Source of the DNA: Methanobacteriota archaeon
GTDB lineage: Archaea; Thermoplasmatota; Thermoplasmata; Methanomassiliicoccales; Methanomassiliicoccaceae
DNA length: 34,347 nt
Direction: 5' to 3'
Assembly (NCBI GenBank): GCA_012519255.1
Contig: JAAYQQ010000060.1
Span: forward strand, 1 to 34,347
Shown here in pieces: positions 10,866-20,254 of the stretch; within the stretch, counting starts at the first letter, position 1, and every line of letters begins with the position of its first letter. A program made the position numbers and the translations under genes. The notes beneath the pieces were generated by a model, which was given only the letters and a program-made list of their open reading frames with translations, was not told the origin of the DNA and made no database searches.

Positions 10866-11528
10866 ATGTATGAGGAGGAGCGACGTCAACTAGTCCATAG
10901 ATTGAAACGCTTTGGGTACGTGAAAAGCGAGAAAATACTCCAGGCCATGGAGAAGGTGCCGCGCCATGAGTTTCTCCCCCTGGAGGCCCGCAGCCACGCC
11001 TACGTCGATTCGCCAATCCCTATCGGACTGGGACAAACCATCTCTGCGCCCCATATGATCGGAATCATGCTGGAAGCGCTGGACCCGCAGCCCGGGAACA
11101 AGGTGCTGGAAATAGGGGCAGGGTCAGGCTACCATGCCGCCCTGATGGGAGAGTTGGTACGTCCCAATGGGAAGGTATATACCGTGGAGCGCCTGGAGGC
11201 GCTGGGTCTGCAGGCTCGAGAAACGATCAATAGGCTTGGGTTCGGGGACGTTGTAGAGGTGTCCATCGCCGATGGCTCTGCTGGCCTGGCAGAGCATGCT
11301 CCTTATGATCGCATCACCGTTGCCGCCGCTGCCCCAGCCGTCCCGAGGCCTCTGGAGGAGCAGCTTGCCGACAATGGTCGCCTTCTCGTGCCGGTAGGAG
11401 ATCGAGGATATCAAGACCTAATACTGGTGGTTCGACGAGGCGACCATCTGGAGCGCAGTGAGCTGGGAGGGGTGGTATTTGTCCCGCTCATAGGCCAACA
11501 TGGTTACGACAATTCGCCTCTTCCATAA
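10866..11528 (+). CDS. pcm: Protein-L-isoaspartate O-methyltransferase
   Basis: VPRHEFLP, YVDSPIPIGLGQTISAPHM, VLEIGAGSGYHAALM, GRLLVPVGDRGYQDL. Confidence 0.95.
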   Translation: MYEEERRQLVHRLKRFGYVKSEKILQAMEKVPRHEFLPLEARSHAYVDSPIPIGLGQTISAPHMIGIMLEALDPQPGNKVLEIGAGSGYHAALMGELVRPNGKVYTVERLEALGLQARETINRLGFGDVVEVSIADGSAGLAEHAPYDRITVAAAAPAVPRPLEEQLADNGRLLVPVGDRGYQDLILVVRRGDHLERSELGGVVFVPLIGQHGYDNSPLP

Positions 11529-12192
11529 TTGGCCCCAATACCTCGCGCAGGTCGTGGGCATGCATGACAACGTCAGCATTCTTCTGCACGTGATCATCGA
11601 TGGGGTTGAAGGCGATAGATAGGCCAGATGCGGAGAACATGGATACGTCCACAAAGCTGTTCCCTATGGCCACGGTCCTGGTTTCCTCGACGCCGTAAAT
11701 GTCCTGGAAATAACGGAGGGCCTTTCCCTTGTTGGTAAGGTCAACTCTTAACACTCCCTCTCCGGTGAGCATACCTTTGGGATCGCACTCCAATCCATTG
11801 GCCAGATAACCATCGAAACCATGATTCTTTGCTATCCGTCTCGCAGTCATGTCCAGACCCCCACTGACGATGACTGCCTTGGCCCCATGGCGGTGCAGCT
11901 CCTTCACGGTCTCACTGATCCCGTTGATAATTGGTACTGGTTCAAGTATGCGTTCGATGTCACTTCTGTGAATGTCTGCTTTAATCTTTATCCATTTGCC
12001 AATATCTCGCCGCATGAACTCTCGGTCGTCGATGCGCCCCTCGATATAATCGATAAGGGTGGCCTCATTATCGATCTTGAAATGGTCATGGACCCAGGTC
12101 CAGGAAGACGTGTAGTCAACCAGCACCCCATCCATGTCGAAGGCGATGAGACCCCATTGAGGTTCCATATTGAGATAGAATTCAAACCTCAT
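11488..12192 (-). CDS. SerB-like HAD-superfamily phosphatase
   Basis: FDMDGVLVDYTSSW (HAD motif I), VIVSGGLDMTAR (II), KGKALRYF (III), VAIGNSFVDVSMF (IV). Confidence 0.88.
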   Translation of the reverse strand: MRFEFYLNMEPQWGLIAFDMDGVLVDYTSSWTWVHDHFKIDNEATLIDYIEGRIDDREFMRRDIGKWIKIKADIHRSDIERILEPVPIINGISETVKELHRHGAKAVIVSGGLDMTARRIAKNHGFDGYLANGLECDPKGMLTGEGVLRVDLTNKGKALRYFQDIYGVEETRTVAIGNSFVDVSMFSASGLSIAFNPIDDHVQKNADVVMHAHDLREVLGPIMEEANCRNHVGL

Positions 12193-12227
12193 TGATTTAG
12201 CTTTTGGAGCTGGCTTCGTTGATAGAG

Positions 12228-12274
12228 ATGATATATGGTCCAGGCATCAAGCTGGCCTTGACTGTAGGTATCAT
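12228..12274 (+). pseudogene. 5' fragment of a small membrane-protein gene interrupted by the 12269-18958 element
   Basis: ATG at 12228 encodes MIYGPGIKLALTVGI; joined at TATCAT it is in phase with the 18959-19091 fragment. Confidence 0.75.
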
Positions 12275-12333
12275 GGATTGGGGGAGTATCTGGCCGACAA
12301 TGGTGAGGACATTATCAATAGCGTAGGGCCTCA

Positions 12334-13125
12334 TCATCTCGCTCCCAGTACGTGAACGGTCATATCGTCCCATGAGATCTCCATGGGCACTCGGCCTATG
12401 TCCATCGCAGCGGTGGTCTCCGCGTAATAATAAACTGTACGATCATGGGTTACGTTGGCGCCGCCGTAGGGGCCACTGATGCCGGCGGCCATATGGCCGC
12501 CCATTGGCGTATCCAGCATGGCCAGCAGGACGGCCGGGCGATCGAGCGCATGCATGACACTGACGTATAGGATGGCCAGGTCCTCGCAGTCGCCGCCGCT
12601 ATCCATCAGCGTCTCGATCGGGTACTTCGGGTACTCCTCGACGCCATGGTAATCGAGGTCCGCCCGGTAATCGAGGCTTCGCACGAACGACAGCGCCAGC
12701 GTGGCGGGGTCGCCGCTCAGGGCCTCGATGGACTCGGCGAGGGCGATCACGGCGAGGTCATCGGGAACCAGGTACAGCGCGTAGGAGTCCAGTGTAACCT
12801 TGCCGCGGGCGGTCTGTCTGGCACTATAATAGTCTCCGGTGGAGAGCTCCATCGATAGTTGATAATGCCGGCCTCCATGTGTCCAATTGTATTGCTTTGT
12901 GACGGTCTCGCCGATGGCGGGAGGCTCAGGCTCGCAGGCATCGAATGAGGGCGCGGGTGGAGGAACCAATAGGAGGCCCGCCAGGAAGATGGTGACGAGC
13001 GCCACGGTCAGGCAACCCCATTGTCGTCGGATGCCGTACCACAGCAATGCCCCCACGGTCATGGCAGTCAGTAGAGCAGCCAGTCCCATGCCCAACTGAT
13101 GCAGCAGTTCTCCGATCATAACCAT
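12334..13125 (-). CDS. Transglutaminase-like cysteine protease with N-terminal TM hairpin
   Basis: Cys in YPIETLMDSGGDCEDLAILYVSVMHAL, His in GGHMAAGISG, acidic residue in TVYYYAETT; two N-terminal TM segments. Confidence 0.85.
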   Translation of the reverse strand: MVMIGELLHQLGMGLAALLTAMTVGALLWYGIRRQWGCLTVALVTIFLAGLLLVPPPAPSFDACEPEPPAIGETVTKQYNWTHGGRHYQLSMELSTGDYYSARQTARGKVTLDSYALYLVPDDLAVIALAESIEALSGDPATLALSFVRSLDYRADLDYHGVEEYPKYPIETLMDSGGDCEDLAILYVSVMHALDRPAVLLAMLDTPMGGHMAAGISGPYGGANVTHDRTVYYYAETTAAMDIGRVPMEISWDDMTVHVLGAR

Positions 13126-14903
13126 CCCATGATCGTCCCGGCGCTGGCGATGATTGCGATGGCCACCAAGGCACCGATGAGCGCCAGCCAGTGCCGTCGG
13201 CTCATTGCGCCCACCATGACGATGAGTCCGCCAGAGAGCAGGCCGATCAGTTGGATGAGCGCGATGACTATACCTTCATCGAGCACGTGGATGGGCGTCC
13301 ACGGCTCTGGCCGCTCGATCGGGTCCCATTCTTCGATTGACATGATCTCCAGATCAATGGTGTCGACCGCCTCGCCTCGGTGGACAAGTTGGGCCACCTC
13401 CAGTTGATAATGGGGCTCCATGGCGATGATCTGTGCGTGGAAGCTGCTTGACCCCGACCACGTGGACAGGTCATTGGTCTCGCCCCATAGGGCGATGATG
13501 CCAGACTGGGTGGCCGTGTTGGTGCCCTTGCCTATGCGCCAATCATCCAACCAGACGTATGGCGTGAACACGACGGACTCATAGAGCAAAGTGCCGGAAG
13601 CGTCGTAGACGTTGCCCCTCAAGTACAGATCTATGCTATCGGGTGCCAATTTCCATCCTGTGGCCGTGAGGTTGCCACCTATCCTCTCATAGTAATCATG
13701 CACCTGGCGGAGATAGAGGGTCGTTAGGATGGCCATTTGTTCATCAGATATCTCCATGTCTGGGATGTCCGGCACAAGTGAGGATGGGGAGATGAGGATG
13801 TTGGACTCTTTAGCCCCCTCGTATATGCGCCACGCTGCCGATGCTGCGGCGCTGGCCTTGGTAAGCGATTGCTCCACTGAGCGAATCATGTCGTCATAGT
13901 GCTGGAGGACGGGCATGAGGCTGATGGGCCCGAATATCATGCCAGTGCCAGCGTCGACGGCCAGTGCCAGGTTGGAGCATGTATTGCCCCATAGCTGCAC
14001 CGCTCCGCCATCGTAGGCGGCCAGGGATATCCCGTCGGGCGATGATATAACTGCCCCAGAGTGCAGGACGCAGGCATCTGCTGCCAGGGCTGGGAGGATG
14101 CCGCCAGCGTAGCTACCGGCGGATAGCTGATAGACGCCCGGGACGATGCCAGCCAACTCGTTGTGGCCTTGCTTTAGCGAGTATTCGGCGCCATCCATCG
14201 CGGTGGCGGTACCGGTGCTGAATGCCCAGAGGCCATCTCCGGTGAGGTAGACCTTATTAACGTCCGCCGTCGCGGTGATGCATGGGCGGATGCTGAGACC
14301 CAGAGCAGAGTCGTAAGCATGGGAGGTGCGCCCATACTGCAACTGGAATGCCATGGAGTCATAACCCTCGGTGTTCTGCCAGGCAGTCAAGCGCTCGTTG
14401 AGCAGTTCGTAAGTTGCGTCTGGTCCGTCGTTGATATTTCGCATCAGTTGAGCCATATTGTAGTACAGCCCGGCGCGCTCGGTAATGGCCTGAGCGGAGT
14501 ACGGTTGACCGGTCGGCCATCGCTCCGCCGCTGCCACCTCGGCCTGACGCATCCAGTAGGCGTTGGTAAACCTCCAGCTGTCGCTGTAGCCGTCGATGCT
14601 ATGAGCAATGAGCTCACTATTGAGACTGAGAATCGTGTGTACGAGTTCGGCTTCGTGCTCGCGGCCTACACTGTCTCCAGCGCCTGGCTTTGACTTGTCG
14701 TCGAGGTACTCACTAAGATGCCAGCCAGCGGCCATGCCAGCGGCGAATGCTACGCCAATAACTACCGCGCTGGCGACGAAGCCCATCTCGGTTTCCTGCA
14801 CTTCGGCGGGTACGGGCCGAGCGACCGCCGACGGCGCCATGGTGGCAATCAGCAGCAGACCAGCAATTACCATGACCAAGAAGGCATGAAATGCGCGTCT
14901 CAG
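13116..14903 (-). CDS. Large secreted/membrane protein of unknown fold with signal peptide and C-terminal TM hairpin (ORF track start TTG 14879; possible CTG start at 14903)
   Basis: MVMVIAGLLLIATMAPSAVA signal; C-term VIALIQLIGLLSGGLIVMVGAMSRRHWLALIGALVAIAIIASAGTIMGWL; overlaps the next gene by 10 bp. Confidence 0.8.
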   Translation of the reverse strand: MRRAFHAFLVMVIAGLLLIATMAPSAVARPVPAEVQETEMGFVASAVVIGVAFAAGMAAGWHLSEYLDDKSKPGAGDSVGREHEAELVHTILSLNSELIAHSIDGYSDSWRFTNAYWMRQAEVAAAERWPTGQPYSAQAITERAGLYYNMAQLMRNINDGPDATYELLNERLTAWQNTEGYDSMAFQLQYGRTSHAYDSALGLSIRPCITATADVNKVYLTGDGLWAFSTGTATAMDGAEYSLKQGHNELAGIVPGVYQLSAGSYAGGILPALAADACVLHSGAVISSPDGISLAAYDGGAVQLWGNTCSNLALAVDAGTGMIFGPISLMPVLQHYDDMIRSVEQSLTKASAAASAAWRIYEGAKESNILISPSSLVPDIPDMEISDEQMAILTTLYLRQVHDYYERIGGNLTATGWKLAPDSIDLYLRGNVYDASGTLLYESVVFTPYVWLDDWRIGKGTNTATQSGIIALWGETNDLSTWSGSSSFHAQIIAMEPHYQLEVAQLVHRGEAVDTIDLEIMSIEEWDPIERPEPWTPIHVLDEGIVIALIQLIGLLSGGLIVMVGAMSRRHWLALIGALVAIAIIASAGTIMGWL

Positions 14904-16183
14904 GTGAACACCTCCGGATGAGCCATCAGCCAGATCATCAGTGATGCAATCGCCAGAATTATGGTTAGTATAAGCGCGTCGCGCCGCCTGGTGATTCCTG
15001 TAATGATCAGGGCGATGAGCGCAACGATGGATAGGAGGATGACGAGATGGCCCGTATAGTGTTCAACGACGTCCTCGCCATCGCCGCTCGCGTTGAGCTG
15101 CCAACCGGCAGTAAGGGTCAGATCGGTGGTGATCGGGGCGGAGAGATCGTATAACTCTCCGCCGACATACCAGCCGGTGAACTCATATCCATTTCTGACC
15201 GGCTCCCGAGGCGCAATGATGGTGGCGCCATGCTGAACGATCTGATGGCTCATGATGGTCCCGTCTACTCTGAATGATACGGTGTGGCCCGGGACCTCGC
15301 CGACGGTCTGGACAGTTACCACGGTTGACGAGCGGACAAAATTGGACCACTGGCCAGAGCGTACGGTAATTGTGTAATCGCCGGGTAAGGCATACTGGTG
15401 GCTCATCTCGCTATTGATGGTATTGTCGCCCCAGTCTACCTGGTGAATAGTGTACTCGGTCGGCAGGTCATCACTGATCATCAGCGCCACGGTGTTGTTG
15501 ATGATGCTCATGCGAAAATGCTCGCGCCATTCTGCCGTTAACGTTAGATCAGAGGATACTGAGGAGCCCCAATTGTAGGTGTTGCCGCGTTCATCTGTCC
15601 AGCGATGGACAACATATCGATCTCGGGTCAGATCTGGCTCATAGATCGCGGTGCCAGATAGGACAGTGATGGCGCCATCCCGCATGGGAATCGTTCCCGC
15701 GGAGGTCGAGACCTCGGCTGGCATTGGGTCGGAGATCAGACTTATGGTATGGGGCAGTTGCTGGACGTTGATCGTCCACTCGGCGCCATATACCACATTC
15801 TGACCTACGAAGAATGGGATAATGATCGGATAGGCGCCAGGCTCTGCAGGGGTGCCAGAGACCAGTATCTTTCCGTCGCCCTGACTGATCGTCAGCCAGG
15901 ATGGGAAATCTTTCCCTGGTACGACAAAGCGACCAGAGTCGCAATTGGCCCATGCCATGATATCGTCGCCTAGGCCATCGTACGCTCTCTCCAGGCGTGA
16001 CGGTAGATAGTCTACCAGATCGATGCTGTATTCCTGGCCGACCCGTGCAGACGTAGGTATCCATGGGGTGCTGGCCCCTGGCGCGCCACTGGCCTGGGTC
16101 AGCGCTGCAAATGGGGCAGCCAGGAGGATGATGAGGGCGGCGAACGCCCCTGCCATCATTAAAGGAGTTCTCCATCCCCTCAT
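14900..16183 (-). CDS. Secreted surface protein with putative Ig (He_PIG-like), PKD-like and InlB B-repeat-like (Flg_new) domains and C-terminal TM hairpin
   Basis: LTISQGDGKILVSGTPAEPGAYPIII; VDWGDNTINSEMSHQYALPGDYTITV; GYEFTGWYVGGELYDLSAPITTDLTLTAGWQ; C-term ILLSIVALIALIITGITRRRDALILTIILAIASLMIWLM. Confidence 0.85.
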   Translation of the reverse strand: MRGWRTPLMMAGAFAALIILLAAPFAALTQASGAPGASTPWIPTSARVGQEYSIDLVDYLPSRLERAYDGLGDDIMAWANCDSGRFVVPGKDFPSWLTISQGDGKILVSGTPAEPGAYPIIIPFFVGQNVVYGAEWTINVQQLPHTISLISDPMPAEVSTSAGTIPMRDGAITVLSGTAIYEPDLTRDRYVVHRWTDERGNTYNWGSSVSSDLTLTAEWREHFRMSIINNTVALMISDDLPTEYTIHQVDWGDNTINSEMSHQYALPGDYTITVRSGQWSNFVRSSTVVTVQTVGEVPGHTVSFRVDGTIMSHQIVQHGATIIAPREPVRNGYEFTGWYVGGELYDLSAPITTDLTLTAGWQLNASGDGEDVVEHYTGHLVILLSIVALIALIITGITRRRDALILTIILAIASLMIWLMAHPEVFT

Positions 16184-17901
16184 ATAATTCCCAGGTGTGC
16201 CAGGGCAGCGATGAGCAAGGCGGCTATGCCGACAATGGCAATCAATGGATGGCGTACTCGGGCAAGATATGCGACCACAAGGATGCCGCCGATAATTGCC
16301 AATACGGCAGTGCCATACCGCTCAATGAAGGTCCCATCTTCTACAATGGCGTTGGAATCATCAGCGATGTTGGGGTCATCCACACTGCCATCGTCGTTGG
16401 GAGGGTTGGCTGGATCATCAACAGTCTCACCCACATTCACCGCAGTGACGGAGGATACAGAGTGATCCAGGTTGTCAGTCACGGTCACGCGGATGGTATA
16501 TGTTCCGTCAGCCACGTACTTATGGCTCACTGAGGTCACACCGCAATATTCTACCCCATCGCCCATCTCCCAGACGATGCTGGAGTAGCTGTTAGCCACC
16601 ACGCTGGCGGTGACCGTGCGCCCATCCACGGTAGAGATAATGTTGGACACCGATGGTTCGGTGACAAATACTAGCCTGTCCCAGACCTTGATGGTAAGTG
16701 TCTGGGTAGCGGTCTGGAGAGAGCCGCCGGCATCACTGGATGCCCTGAGCGTCACCGTAGTTTCCGGTATCGGAGCAGAGCAGGGTACTGTCAGGACGCC
16801 GCCAGATAGGGTCATGCCGCCGACGAGTCCGGTAGCGGTAAGCTCGGCACCTTCTGGCACTATAACAGGCGTATAGGTCCAGTCGTGGTTACCCTCGACC
16901 AACCAGACGGTGGTACCGGTACCCTCGTGGTTGGTTGGTGTGCTGTCAATTCCCACATTAACATAGGTGGTGATGGTAGCTGTCATGGTCTTGGATTGAG
17001 AGATACCACCGGCGGAGGCAGTGGCGGTAATGGTCACGGAGGTAGCCCCCTCGACGTTGGCGGCCGTGCTACGCGCCAGGATCCAGGAGCTCTCAGAGTT
17101 CTTGGTGAGCGTATAGCCGGCCGTGGTCGCCTCGGCATTGAGCGCCAGCGTGACCTCGCTGGTGGCGTCGGGATCGACGTCGGAGACGCTGATTCCAGTG
17201 GAGTAGGATTTACCGGCCCACGAGCTCGGAGGGATGGATCCAGAGAGAGTCAGAGGGTTGTATACGCGGAACTCAATGGTTTGATACGCGTAGCGGACCG
17301 GACCGCCGTCATTACTGGTGGCCCTGATTATCACGGTCTGTTTACCGGTCTTGGCAGTGCCGCTGATGATGTCACCTGATAGTGTTAGACCTACCGTGGC
17401 CAGATCGCCAGAGGAGACAGAGAATGTAGACGGTACGTTCGTCTCCATCTGATAATTGAATGTGTCACCAGCCAGCATGTTAATTATAATGGGCTCTGGC
17501 TGGTAGACGTTGATGGCCCACTGGCATGAGCCTGCGTTTGAACCATGAACAATAAACATGGCAGTGACAGTGTAAGAGCCGGTCTCGGTAGGCGTCCCAG
17601 AGACTGTTACTTTACCCCCGCCTTGAGTCACGGTCAGCCATGAAGGAGCGTTGTAAAGATTGACCTCTGCGCAAGATGGCGGATTGTTTGCCCCATCACG
17701 CCCCCATCCAGCATAATCCGCGCCCATGTATTCTAAAAGTTCAACACAGTAGAGCTGTCCTACCTGGGTATTGGTCTGTATGCCTGATGGATCTACCACA
17801 TCAGCACCCATTACGATGCCGACTGGCGCCAGTGTCGCAAATGGGGCAGCCAGGAGAATGATTGTCGCAAAGAGAGTTATGGTAGCAGTAGAGTATTTCA
17901 T
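16180..17901 (-). CDS. Secreted surface protein with repeated putative Ig domains, a PKD domain and C-terminal TM hairpin
   Basis: Signal MKYSTATITLFATIILLAAPFATLA; LTVTQGGGKVTVSGTPTETGSYTVTA; WEMGDGVEYCGVTSVSHKYVADGTYTIRVTVTD; C-term AVLAIIGGILVVAYLARVRHPLIAIVGIAALLIAALA; ATGA overlap with downstream gene. Confidence 0.87.
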   Translation of the reverse strand: MKYSTATITLFATIILLAAPFATLAPVGIVMGADVVDPSGIQTNTQVGQLYCVELLEYMGADYAGWGRDGANNPPSCAEVNLYNAPSWLTVTQGGGKVTVSGTPTETGSYTVTAMFIVHGSNAGSCQWAINVYQPEPIIINMLAGDTFNYQMETNVPSTFSVSSGDLATVGLTLSGDIISGTAKTGKQTVIIRATSNDGGPVRYAYQTIEFRVYNPLTLSGSIPPSSWAGKSYSTGISVSDVDPDATSEVTLALNAEATTAGYTLTKNSESSWILARSTAANVEGATSVTITATASAGGISQSKTMTATITTYVNVGIDSTPTNHEGTGTTVWLVEGNHDWTYTPVIVPEGAELTATGLVGGMTLSGGVLTVPCSAPIPETTVTLRASSDAGGSLQTATQTLTIKVWDRLVFVTEPSVSNIISTVDGRTVTASVVANSYSSIVWEMGDGVEYCGVTSVSHKYVADGTYTIRVTVTDNLDHSVSSVTAVNVGETVDDPANPPNDDGSVDDPNIADDSNAIVEDGTFIERYGTAVLAIIGGILVVAYLARVRHPLIAIVGIAALLIAALAHLGII

Positions 17902-17902
17902 G

Positions 17903-17917
17903 GCGCGTTGAACGCGC
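17903..17917. promoter_or_regulatory. Palindrome GCGCGT-TGA-ACGCGC directly upstream of the start codon of the first surface gene
   Basis: Perfect 6-bp inverted repeat with 3-nt spacer, 1 bp from the ATG at 17901. Confidence 0.5.
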
Positions 17918-17961
17918 TAACTTCCTATCAGAATAATTTTTCCAAAGAAATGATAAAGTTT

Positions 17962-18939
17962 TTAATGTCGCAGGTAACGAGACATGAAGGTTTTGAGAAT
18001 CCATGGCGCGTAAATCCTAATCATGCATACAACACGGATGGCGTTAGCGACAATATCGGATTTGGGTCGGCCAGTAATGAGATTTAGTTGATCAATAAGA
18101 TTCACAACATCCGAAGGCAGGGAGTAGCTTCGACAGGTCCGTGAGGATTTTGCCCGAGCGCCAGTCACCACATCTCTTTGCATCCCAGAGCCCTGTCCTA
18201 GATAGGTGAACGAGGTGGTCGTCTCGTGCCGGAAATTATCATTATTTTCGACACCCTCATTTTCCTCATGTTTACCTATGCATCCACTTCCCCCACCCTT
18301 CCTAGCGTCTATTGAAATATTGAATCTGGAGAGATAGTCATAGAGCGTCGAGCGAGGAATCCCTAGACGGGCAGCAAGCCGTTTTTTAGATATGTTTGGT
18401 TCCTGGGAGAGGATTTGTTCTATGTCTTCTCGGCGTACAGGAAACTTTCCCCCATTGGCTTCGTACCCTCGGCGAGGTCGACCACTATGTATTCTCCGAC
18501 CCCCTCCCCTTGCCGTGTAATTTAAGCACCCATCTCTTATCAGCCCTCGTTCGAACTCCGCCAGGGCACCTAGAATATGGATTATTGTGCCTCCGCTAGC
18601 GGGGCTTATCTCTATTCGTTGATCCACGCAGATCAGGTTTATGCCCCATGAGTCCAGGTCCTCCATTATTGATAGTAGGTTGGTCAGACTGCGCATTATC
18701 TGGGAGAGGCGCGCTATTATGATCGTGTCGAACTTGCGTTGCCGGGCGTCACCCATCATCTGATCCAGCTGGGGATGATGATGCTCCGCCTCTGATACTC
18801 CATCAACATAAATGTACAAGGGGCTTACCTCGTAGCCCCTGGAATTGGCGAACCTTTTCAGCTCATTGAGTTGACAATCCAGGCTCTGGGGCCCTTTGAC
18901 CTCTGAGGGAGATACACGGGCGTAAAGAGCGGCCCTCAC
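17962..18939 (-). CDS. Serine recombinase (resolvase/invertase type) with HTH and C-terminal ribbon-helix-helix-like domain
   Basis: MRAALYARVS N-term; ALAEFERGLIRD; HTH ISKKRLAARLGIPRSTLYDYL; RHH-like RSYSLPSDVVNLIDQLNLITGRPKSDIVANAIRVV; GTG start. Confidence 0.9.
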   Translation of the reverse strand: MRAALYARVSPSEVKGPQSLDCQLNELKRFANSRGYEVSPLYIYVDGVSEAEHHHPQLDQMMGDARQRKFDTIIIARLSQIMRSLTNLLSIMEDLDSWGINLICVDQRIEISPASGGTIIHILGALAEFERGLIRDGCLNYTARGGGRRIHSGRPRRGYEANGGKFPVRREDIEQILSQEPNISKKRLAARLGIPRSTLYDYLSRFNISIDARKGGGSGCIGKHEENEGVENNDNFRHETTTSFTYLGQGSGMQRDVVTGARAKSSRTCRSYSLPSDVVNLIDQLNLITGRPKSDIVANAIRVVCMIRIYAPWILKTFMSRYLRH

Positions 18940-18958
18940 TGCATCAGCCTCTTATCAT

Positions 18959-19091
18959 TCATCCGGTACCCGCTCCTATCGTGATCGGACTGCCAGTTCT
19001 CGGCGTGGCAATAATCGCGGCGGGCGGCTATTCCCAGCCTGATACGGGTGAGAATATGAAGGGCATAGGGGCAAGCATGACTGAGACATGA
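18959..19091 (+). pseudogene. 3' fragment of the interrupted small membrane-protein gene
   Basis: Open frame ..IHPVPAPIVIGLPVLGVAIIAAGGYSQPDTGENMKGIGASMTET, stop TGA at 19089-19091. Confidence 0.75.
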
Positions 19092-19525
19092 TCTGTATAT
19101 GAATTGACAATATCCGACGCCTCGCCGCGCTCTATTTATGATGGCCCATACGCTGTCCAAAGCCTTGGAGGAAGGCCGTCCTTTCAATATGGGGATAAAA
19201 TGGCGGAACCTGGTATGTGATTGCCGATAGTGGCCAATGTCTGTACCCATCTCAATGGAGGCAGTCCTGATGGCACTCATGAGAATGCCCGCGCCGATAG
19301 GCAGATCATATTATATCCATGCCCTTTCAAATCGCGATTACGCGAGTGGATAGGTGGCGTATGGTCGATGGTTTTGCGGCGCAATAACAAAATATTCCGA
19401 ATTCTCACCTGGCTTATCTTTTATCTATCAACCCAGCTGCCAACGCAAAGAACTGGGTCATATCCCCTGGCCAGTGCACGAGGTTCAACGAAACCTTATT
19501 GATATTGTTTTGTAATGGTTTGTTA

Positions 19526-20254
19526 ATGATAACGGTGCTGGGAGTTGGCCACGTCTTTGACATTTCCACACAGGTCCGTAAGATCATAGAGGACGAACGG
19601 CCAGATGCAGTATGTGTAGAACTGGATCCACTTCGCTATCAGGCCCTTATCAATCCTCCCCGCGACAATCCAGACGTCCCCCTTGCTTACAATCTCCTCG
19701 CCTCCTTCCAGAGGCGGCTGGCCCGTAGCTATGGGGGGGAAGTCGGAGCAGAGATGCTGGCCGCCATTAAGGCTGCTGGGGCGGTAGGGTCAGAGGTAAT
19801 GCTTATCGATGTTAATGCTACCCAGATGTTCCGTCGACTGTGGCAGGAGATGCCGTCGCTGGAGAAGGTCAAGCTCGGTCTCTCTGCGATATCTTCTCTA
19901 TTTCTGAGCCGTCGGCGGGTGGAGAAGGAGCTGGAGAACTTCCAGGAGCATGAGGAACTCTATCTTGAAGAAATGGCCCAACAGTTCCCAACGCTCAAGC
20001 GTATGCTTATCGATGATCGCAATCACATAATGGCCCAGCGCATTGATGCTGCCGCTTCAGCCTTCCCCAACGTACTGGCAGTAGTGGGGGATGGGCATGT
20101 GGAAGGCATCGTCCGCCTCCTTGGCAGGGATGACATTACGATCATCCGGCTGAGGGAACTGCTTGGACAGGGGAGCATGCCCGTTGACGATCGCGATGGA
20201 AATGCCCAGGCTTGTTTCCATTATGAATATTCACTCCGCGATGAAGCCTTTTAA
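19526..20254 (+). CDS. TraB/PrgY family protein
   Basis: TVLGVGHVFDIS, VCVELDPLRYQAL, DDRNHIMAQRI, LAVVGDGHVEGIVRLL; ATG at 19526 within ORF 19499..20254. Confidence 0.88.
   Translation: MITVLGVGHVFDISTQVRKIIEDERPDAVCVELDPLRYQALINPPRDNPDVPLAYNLLASFQRRLARSYGGEVGAEMLAAIKAAGAVGSEVMLIDVNATQMFRRLWQEMPSLEKVKLGLSAISSLFLSRRRVEKELENFQEHEELYLEEMAQQFPTLKRMLIDDRNHIMAQRIDAAASAFPNVLAVVGDGHVEGIVRLLGRDDITIIRLRELLGQGSMPVDDRDGNAQACFHYEYSLRDEAF

Follow-up and report, generated by a model that had tools for sequence, protein, structure and literature searches.

In genomes of the archaeal family Methanomassiliicoccaceae, the genes for a HAD-family phosphatase and for a TraB/PrgY-family protein are divergent neighbours, and the locus studied here raises the question of what has come to separate them in one genome and where it came from. 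The window, that is, the whole stretch of 34,347 nucleotides that was analysed, is the entire contig C149 of a metagenome-assembled genome (MAG; G000; 1.75 Mb in 149 contigs, 97% complete), and it was compared with 14 other genomes of the family (15 including G000) and, for wider family counts, with 199 relatives. In the window, a block of five genes lies between the two neighbours, encoding a serine-recombinase-like protein and four surface or secreted proteins (P573, P427, P587 and P263). We conclude that this 7.3-kb insert is probably a now immobile island of spike-module genes, which would derive from a pleolipovirus-like (VP4-type) provirus of Methanomassiliicoccales and may have been domesticated.

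The HAD and TraB/PrgY genes were found as divergent neighbours in every family genome tested. According to tblastn, the gap between them measures 3-54 bp in 10 of the 14 other genomes, 144 bp in G006 and 7.3 kb in the window. Because the two genes are neighbours throughout the family and nearly touch each other in these ten genomes, the window block must be an insert, and the presence of about 7 kb of foreign DNA between them, with empty sites in relatives as the first-pass annotation of the window had expected, is confirmed. The gap is an insertion hotspot with varying cargo. In G001, a genome of the same genus and of a second species, and in G005 it holds a NikR-like gene together with znuABC (3.4 kb), and in G004 the NikR-like gene only. 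When leftover NikR-znuABC sequence was sought in the residual flanks of the window block (12193-12340 and 18930-19495), none was found.

A collinear block was found in G001 (contig C100), where P263, P587, P427 and P573 occur in the same order as in the window, with identities of 59, 53, 36 and 42%, respectively (tblastn), followed by an open reading frame (ORF) that matches only the C-terminal, ribbon-helix-helix (RHH) part of the window recombinase. This block is located at a different place from that of the window and begins at the 3' end of an apparent intron-bearing tRNA (our own reading; ARAGORN gave no call). Its empty site was seen in G005, and in G000 the counterpart of the gene neighbouring the G001 block, which marks the corresponding site, lies at a contig end. 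For the four gene pairs, the proportions of nonsynonymous differences (pN) were 0.30-0.43 and those of synonymous differences (pS) 0.81-0.86 (saturated), and as pN is well below pS, the proteins have evolved under constraint, be it in a virus or in a cell.

The connection to viruses is made by P587, which displays a signal peptide region, a helical N-domain, beta domains and a C-terminal transmembrane hairpin. Its family was detected in 29 of the 199 genomes, and its members often belong to integrated elements that include an ATPase, an integrase or a replication protein (Rep). In G003, P587-family genes are located in a stretch of about 27 kb bounded by a tyrosine integrase that overlaps tRNA-Arg and by a second copy of the integrase end with 80% identity, where "tyrosine integrase" is our reading of a 395-amino-acid protein, a label with no profile result behind it. 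In G006, at a locus (L107) beside tRNA-Pro, P587 precedes a two-transmembrane protein, an ATPase and a protein that has an HUH-type motif, and two-transmembrane proteins and ATPases are likewise encoded downstream of the P587 homolog in G060, G035, G032 and G046. The provirus ATPase matches the ORF8 nucleoside triphosphatases (NTPases) of pleolipoviruses (hhalign probability 93), although both are P-loop proteins. The ATPase and two-transmembrane families are both present in G003 and G005 and both absent from G000 and G001. The first-pass annotation had recognised no described element with such a content, which was too strong a statement, since VP4-type (pleolipovirus-like) proviruses of Methanomassiliicoccales have been reported (Medvedeva et al., 2023, as cited in a passage of PMC10919331). 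The link of the window block to these proviruses likely consists in the membership of P587 in a family that occurs in integrated elements beside tRNA genes.

Some of these elements have further features. The G003 element at tRNA-Arg (G003:C1, about 70.1-97.4 kb; L078 and L076) comprises the integrase, the ATPase, the two-transmembrane protein, the spike operon and an intact serine recombinase, as well as a 951-amino-acid DNA methyltransferase-like protein and an HExxH protein, and the reading frame of its ATPase seems to be split. A 440-amino-acid protein beside the spike operon of G006:C1 (L107, 12481-13803) has an HIH motif and resembles HUH rolling-circle Rep proteins. A separate provirus-like contig (L157; G005:C38, 1-9181) encodes an ATPase, two-transmembrane proteins and a large membrane protein that was missed by the P587 search and is possibly a very divergent spike.

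Fold comparisons led to the same group of viruses. AlphaFold models were obtained for P587 of the window (predicted local distance difference test, pLDDT, 70.9; predicted template modelling score, pTM, 0.54) and for its G003 homolog (pLDDT 69.2; pTM 0.63); the two models share one alignment and are not fully independent. In Foldseek searches of BFVD, the best match of both was VP4 of Halorubrum pleomorphic virus 11 (HRPV-11), with E-values of 2.4e-9 for the window protein and 4.2e-7 for the homolog and a probability of 1.00 in each case, and the runners-up for both models had E-values of 6e-4 or worse and probabilities of at most 0.25. In a fold search of the PDB, the VP5 spike of HRPV-6 (6qgl) had the highest probability among the matches shown (0.60; E-value 0.19), and a PDB sequence search with P587 gave nothing.

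Several results weigh against an island derived from a VP4-type provirus. The overall template modelling scores are low (0.22-0.27), the P587-family models themselves are of moderate quality (pLDDT about 70, pTM 0.54-0.63), and an hhalign comparison of the P587-family profile with eleven haloarchaeal spikes found no link to VP4 (probability 1%). Given these low scores and the missing profile match, we claim the likeness to VP4 at the fold level only. The two-transmembrane family did not match the pleolipovirus ORF7 profile (probability 2.5%), and the spike family had no match in IMG/VR or INPHARED, in pattern scans that are insensitive. Families missing from G000 could simply be unassembled, as this genome is a MAG. 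The surface genes are the same in both islands, an outcome not readily expected if separate proviruses had lost their genes independently. Finally, P263 belongs to a widespread host-type family and the island is therefore not purely viral. It matches LapG (4fgo, E-value 9.7e-05; NCBIfam LapG, E-value 5.7e-05), and relatives of its type, common in host genomes, are present in 131 of the 199 genomes. As the family is so widespread in hosts, the P263 gene was apparently recruited from a host into the block before the window and G001 copies diverged. Searches of IMG/VR for the ATPase and for the PKD protein also found nothing; they needed near-exact peptide patterns and are weak negatives.

These results bear on an alternative in which the block is a purely cellular, adhesin-like cluster moved about by ordinary recombination; P587 would then resemble viral spikes in fold through convergence or borrowing, and the recombinase would be an accidental acquisition. 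PKD, Listeria-Bacteroides and transglutaminase-like domains do occur in many Methanomassiliicoccales proteins, the GC content of the block is host-like (56% versus 54% for the host) and, as stated above, P587 has no sequence-profile link to VP4. However, several genomes have their P587-family genes in integrated elements that adjoin tRNA genes and encode an integrase, an ATPase or Rep, and two models of the family pick VP4 with a probability of 1.00, so we judge a purely cellular origin to be unlikely.

Whether the block was mobile as a unit was considered from its edges, where a direct repeat of about 22 bp was noticed. AAACCTTCTTGTTTATGTTTTGTCATGG is present once in the empty sites of G002 and G003 and in two direct copies in the window, a left copy AAACCTCATTGATTTAGCTTTTG and a right copy AAACCTTATTGATATTGTTTTG; within the window the motif AAACCTTATTGATTT, taken from the repeat and allowing up to 3 mismatches, was found only at these two places. 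The match between left and right copies is modest, being reached by 0.5% of near-flank shuffles and by 4.7% of wider-flank resamplings, and it is the agreement with the empty-site copy that makes the repeat credible. It is a better edge signal than the hexamer TATCAT discussed below. Similar duplications flank a different insert, NikR-znuABC, in G001, G004 and G005, and the repeat may therefore mark an older event or represent the promoters of the two flanking genes. Another possibility is a minimal element, autonomous or satellite, in which the surface genes and the RHH-type gene would move together, with a helper VP4-type virus supplying the genes for integration and packaging. It would agree with the occurrence of blocks of identical content and order at different places in two species, one of them beside a tRNA, and with a direct repeat around the window block. 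In contrast, the P587 family has no second copy in G000, two examples only are available, the repeat is not specific for this block and the recombinase is apparently dead; to us, a satellite element therefore appears improbable.

The recombinase was central to the first-pass annotation, which had described a mobile cassette that relied on its own serine recombinase and was precisely inserted at TATCAT, as attachment or target core, into a gene for a membrane protein of 59 amino acids. The hexamer is indeed present at 12269-12274 and 18953-18958, joining the flanks reproduces the ORF of 180 nt and 59 amino acids, and between the two hexamers five intact, co-directional ORFs, the serine recombinase and four surface or secreted proteins, were found on the minus strand, with the resolvase-domain gene at one end of the block. 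The insertion of a discrete piece of foreign DNA is also real; its precise integration into a 59-amino-acid gene, however, does not stand. TATCAT occurs 12 times on the plus strand of the window and is one of nineteen 6-mers common to both flanks. Among Markov-resampled flanks, 58% (ATG only) to 73% (ATG/GTG/TTG) yielded a joined ORF of at least 59 amino acids through some shared 6-mer. The 59-amino-acid protein has no homolog in the 14 other family genomes, where nothing below an E-value of 0.05 was obtained except its own two halves, and no other genome of the genus contained the joined DNA of the supposed empty site. With no intact 59-amino-acid ORF in any relative, the proposal fails the check that the first-pass annotation had itself set. 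Because the protein has no homologs and the joined ORF is expected by chance, the argument from a disrupted gene carries no evidence, and an interrupted 59-amino-acid gene was rejected. As the collinear G001 block lacks the recombinase domain and the window recombinase lacks two active-site residues, the cassette inserted at TATCAT is very improbable.

The window recombinase aligns with small serine recombinases and with the N-domain of TP901-1, and where nine homologs keep Asp-Arg it has Ser79-Gln80. These positions correspond to D67 and R68 in Tn3/gamma-delta numbering, and R68 contacts the scissile phosphate (PMC4499144); owing to this loss the protein is predicted to be inactive and, judging from the alignment, probably no longer cuts DNA. 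The G003 element, in which the recombinase homolog is intact, has in addition a tyrosine integrase, located at a tRNA gene, and movement of the window block by its own serine recombinase is not supported. The window recombinase has a C-terminal segment (xNLIDQLxxxTGxxKxDIVxxAI) that we read as RHH-like and part of which PHROGs assigns to a transcriptional regulator; in the elements of G003, G035 and G060 this segment is encoded by a small gene of its own that precedes the surface genes, and in G001 it stands alone. Since the recombinase gene and the RHH-like gene are adjacent and nearly overlap in G003, a fusion is the straightforward account of the window recombinase. Upstream sequences of the window recombinase and of the G001 RHH gene gave a score near that of shuffles, and a scan of named genomes for the recombinase found nothing, a weak negative as near-exact peptide patterns are needed. 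An invertible switch of the surface genes run by the recombinase was rejected, for no convincing inverted repeat pair was found round the promoter and the active site is lost. A tandem pair of co-directional serine recombinases of about 295 and 271 amino acids in G001 (L018; G001:C116, 615-2310), clearly unlike that of the window, recurs as paired matches in many Methanomassiliicoccales genomes, and its conservation suggests a fixed cellular role.

For the immobile island that we favour, the following history can be proposed, in which the insertion, the collinearity, the missing viral families, the lost active-site residues and the fold match are observed, and the viral descent, the regulation and the present function are inferred. 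The island would have kept the surface or spike operon, coding for the PKD protein, the Listeria-Bacteroides-repeat protein, the VP4-like spike and the transglutaminase-like peptidase, and would have lost the neighbouring virus genes for the two-transmembrane ORF6/7-like protein and the packaging-type ATPase. The recombinase would have been joined to the RHH-like DNA-binding domain, which in proviruses lies ahead of the spike operon, and the fusion, if it acts at all, would most likely bind DNA locally and regulate the operon. As none of the five ORFs is broken and a second species has almost the same set, the proteins probably are still made and selected for, plausibly at the cell surface in adhesion or in blocking related viruses. 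All four surface proteins (12334-17901) have paired hydrophobic segments, at the N-terminus in P263 and as C-terminal hairpins in the other three, which hints that they share an assembly in the membrane. A more specific proposal, which we hold only tentatively and consider rather doubtful, is a domesticated viral spike operon with a VP4-type membrane fusogen, adhesin-like partners, a host-type peptidase and a regulator made of a dead serine recombinase and a viral RHH-type protein; it would serve in contacts between cells, in the exchange of vesicles or DNA, or in keeping out related viruses. Domesticated viral fusogens are important in eukaryotes, and a spike operon that had outlasted its virus in two archaeal species would offer a testable archaeal parallel. 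Virus ancestry would also be indicated for some "adhesin-like" surface clusters in Methanomassiliicoccales of the gut and of digesters, and a recombinase adjoining such surface genes need not be active. The features of the locus are listed below; the real start of the HAD gene is probably the in-frame ATG giving MEPQWG and that of the TraB gene the ATG at 19526.

Features of the insert and its flanks in the window, and cargo of the same gap in relatives
Feature	Position	Strand	Basis or remark
HAD-family phosphatase, left flank gene	11488..12192	-	Pfam HAD; divergent neighbour of TraB in 15/15 family genomes
Direct repeat (~22 bp), left copy	12184..12206	+	Aligns with right copy and with single empty-site copy of G002/G003
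5' half of supposed 59-amino-acid gene	12228..12274	+	Probably non-coding: no homolog, high chance expectation
P263: two N-terminal transmembrane segments and transglutaminase-like/LapG-like cysteine peptidase domain	12334..13125	-	
P587: spike/fusogen-like protein	13116..14879	-	Pleolipovirus VP4-like fold (Foldseek)
P427: secreted protein, Listeria-Bacteroides repeat (Flg_new), C-terminal transmembrane hairpin	14900..16183	-	Pfam PF09479, E-value 3.4e-16
P573: secreted PKD-domain protein, C-terminal transmembrane hairpin	16180..17901	-	Pfam PKD
Serine-recombinase-like protein with helix-turn-helix and fused C-terminal RHH-like domain; predicted catalytically inactive	17962..18939	-	Pfam Resolvase, E-value 1.1e-24
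Codons for Ser79-Gln80 (Asp-Arg in homologs)	18700..18705	-	Alignment with nine homologs and TP901-1
3' half of supposed 59-amino-acid gene	18953..19091	+	Probably non-coding: no homolog, high chance expectation
Direct repeat (~22 bp), right copy	19491..19512	+	28-bp match to empty-site copy of G002/G003
TraB/PrgY-family protein, right flank gene	19499..20254	+	Pfam TraB_PrgY_gumN; in 15/15 family genomes
HAD-TraB gap cargo in relatives	L062 1810-4986 (G001); L063 1897-5081 (G005); L064 2213-2599 (G004)		

When compared with known systems, the window recombinase shares with small serine recombinases (resolvases/invertases, the TP901-1 N-domain, gamma-delta and Tn3) the Resolvase domain, the Ser10 nucleophile, the equivalents of R8 and R71 and a helix-turn-helix behind them, but it has Ser-Gln in place of D67-R68 and an additional RHH-like C-terminal domain. 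Like LapG-type transglutaminase-like cysteine proteinases, P263 has the Cys-containing DCEDLA region, whereas it is membrane-anchored through its two N-terminal segments and scores far below the family cut-off. With the VP4-type proviruses of Methanomassiliicoccales the window block has in common the host order and the VP4-type spike fold; in contrast to them, it lacks the ATPase, the two-transmembrane protein, an integrase and Rep, and it lies between two protein genes and not at a tRNA. The pleolipovirus group is defined by four hallmark genes, and three of them (ORF6, 7 and 8) are missing from the window block (PMC10599561). A spike with a VP4-type fold, the counterpart of ORF4 of HRPV-1, is present, at the fold level only; no ORF6/ORF7-type membrane protein is encoded beside it in the block, the ORF8 NTPase is absent, and none of the five genes codes for an integrase or Rep. 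A VP3-like small membrane protein was not noted among the block ORFs, which were inspected by eye with no profile built. By the hallmark rule, the window block is not a pleolipovirus. When set against Pleolipoviridae (HRPV-1, HRPV-6, HRPV-11 and His2), the window spike differs in having no sequence-level match and two C-terminal transmembrane segments instead of one, yet a spike of this family, with signal peptide and C-terminal membrane anchor, is its top fold match, and the pleolipoviral order of spike, two-transmembrane protein and NTPase recurs in proviruses related to the window block.

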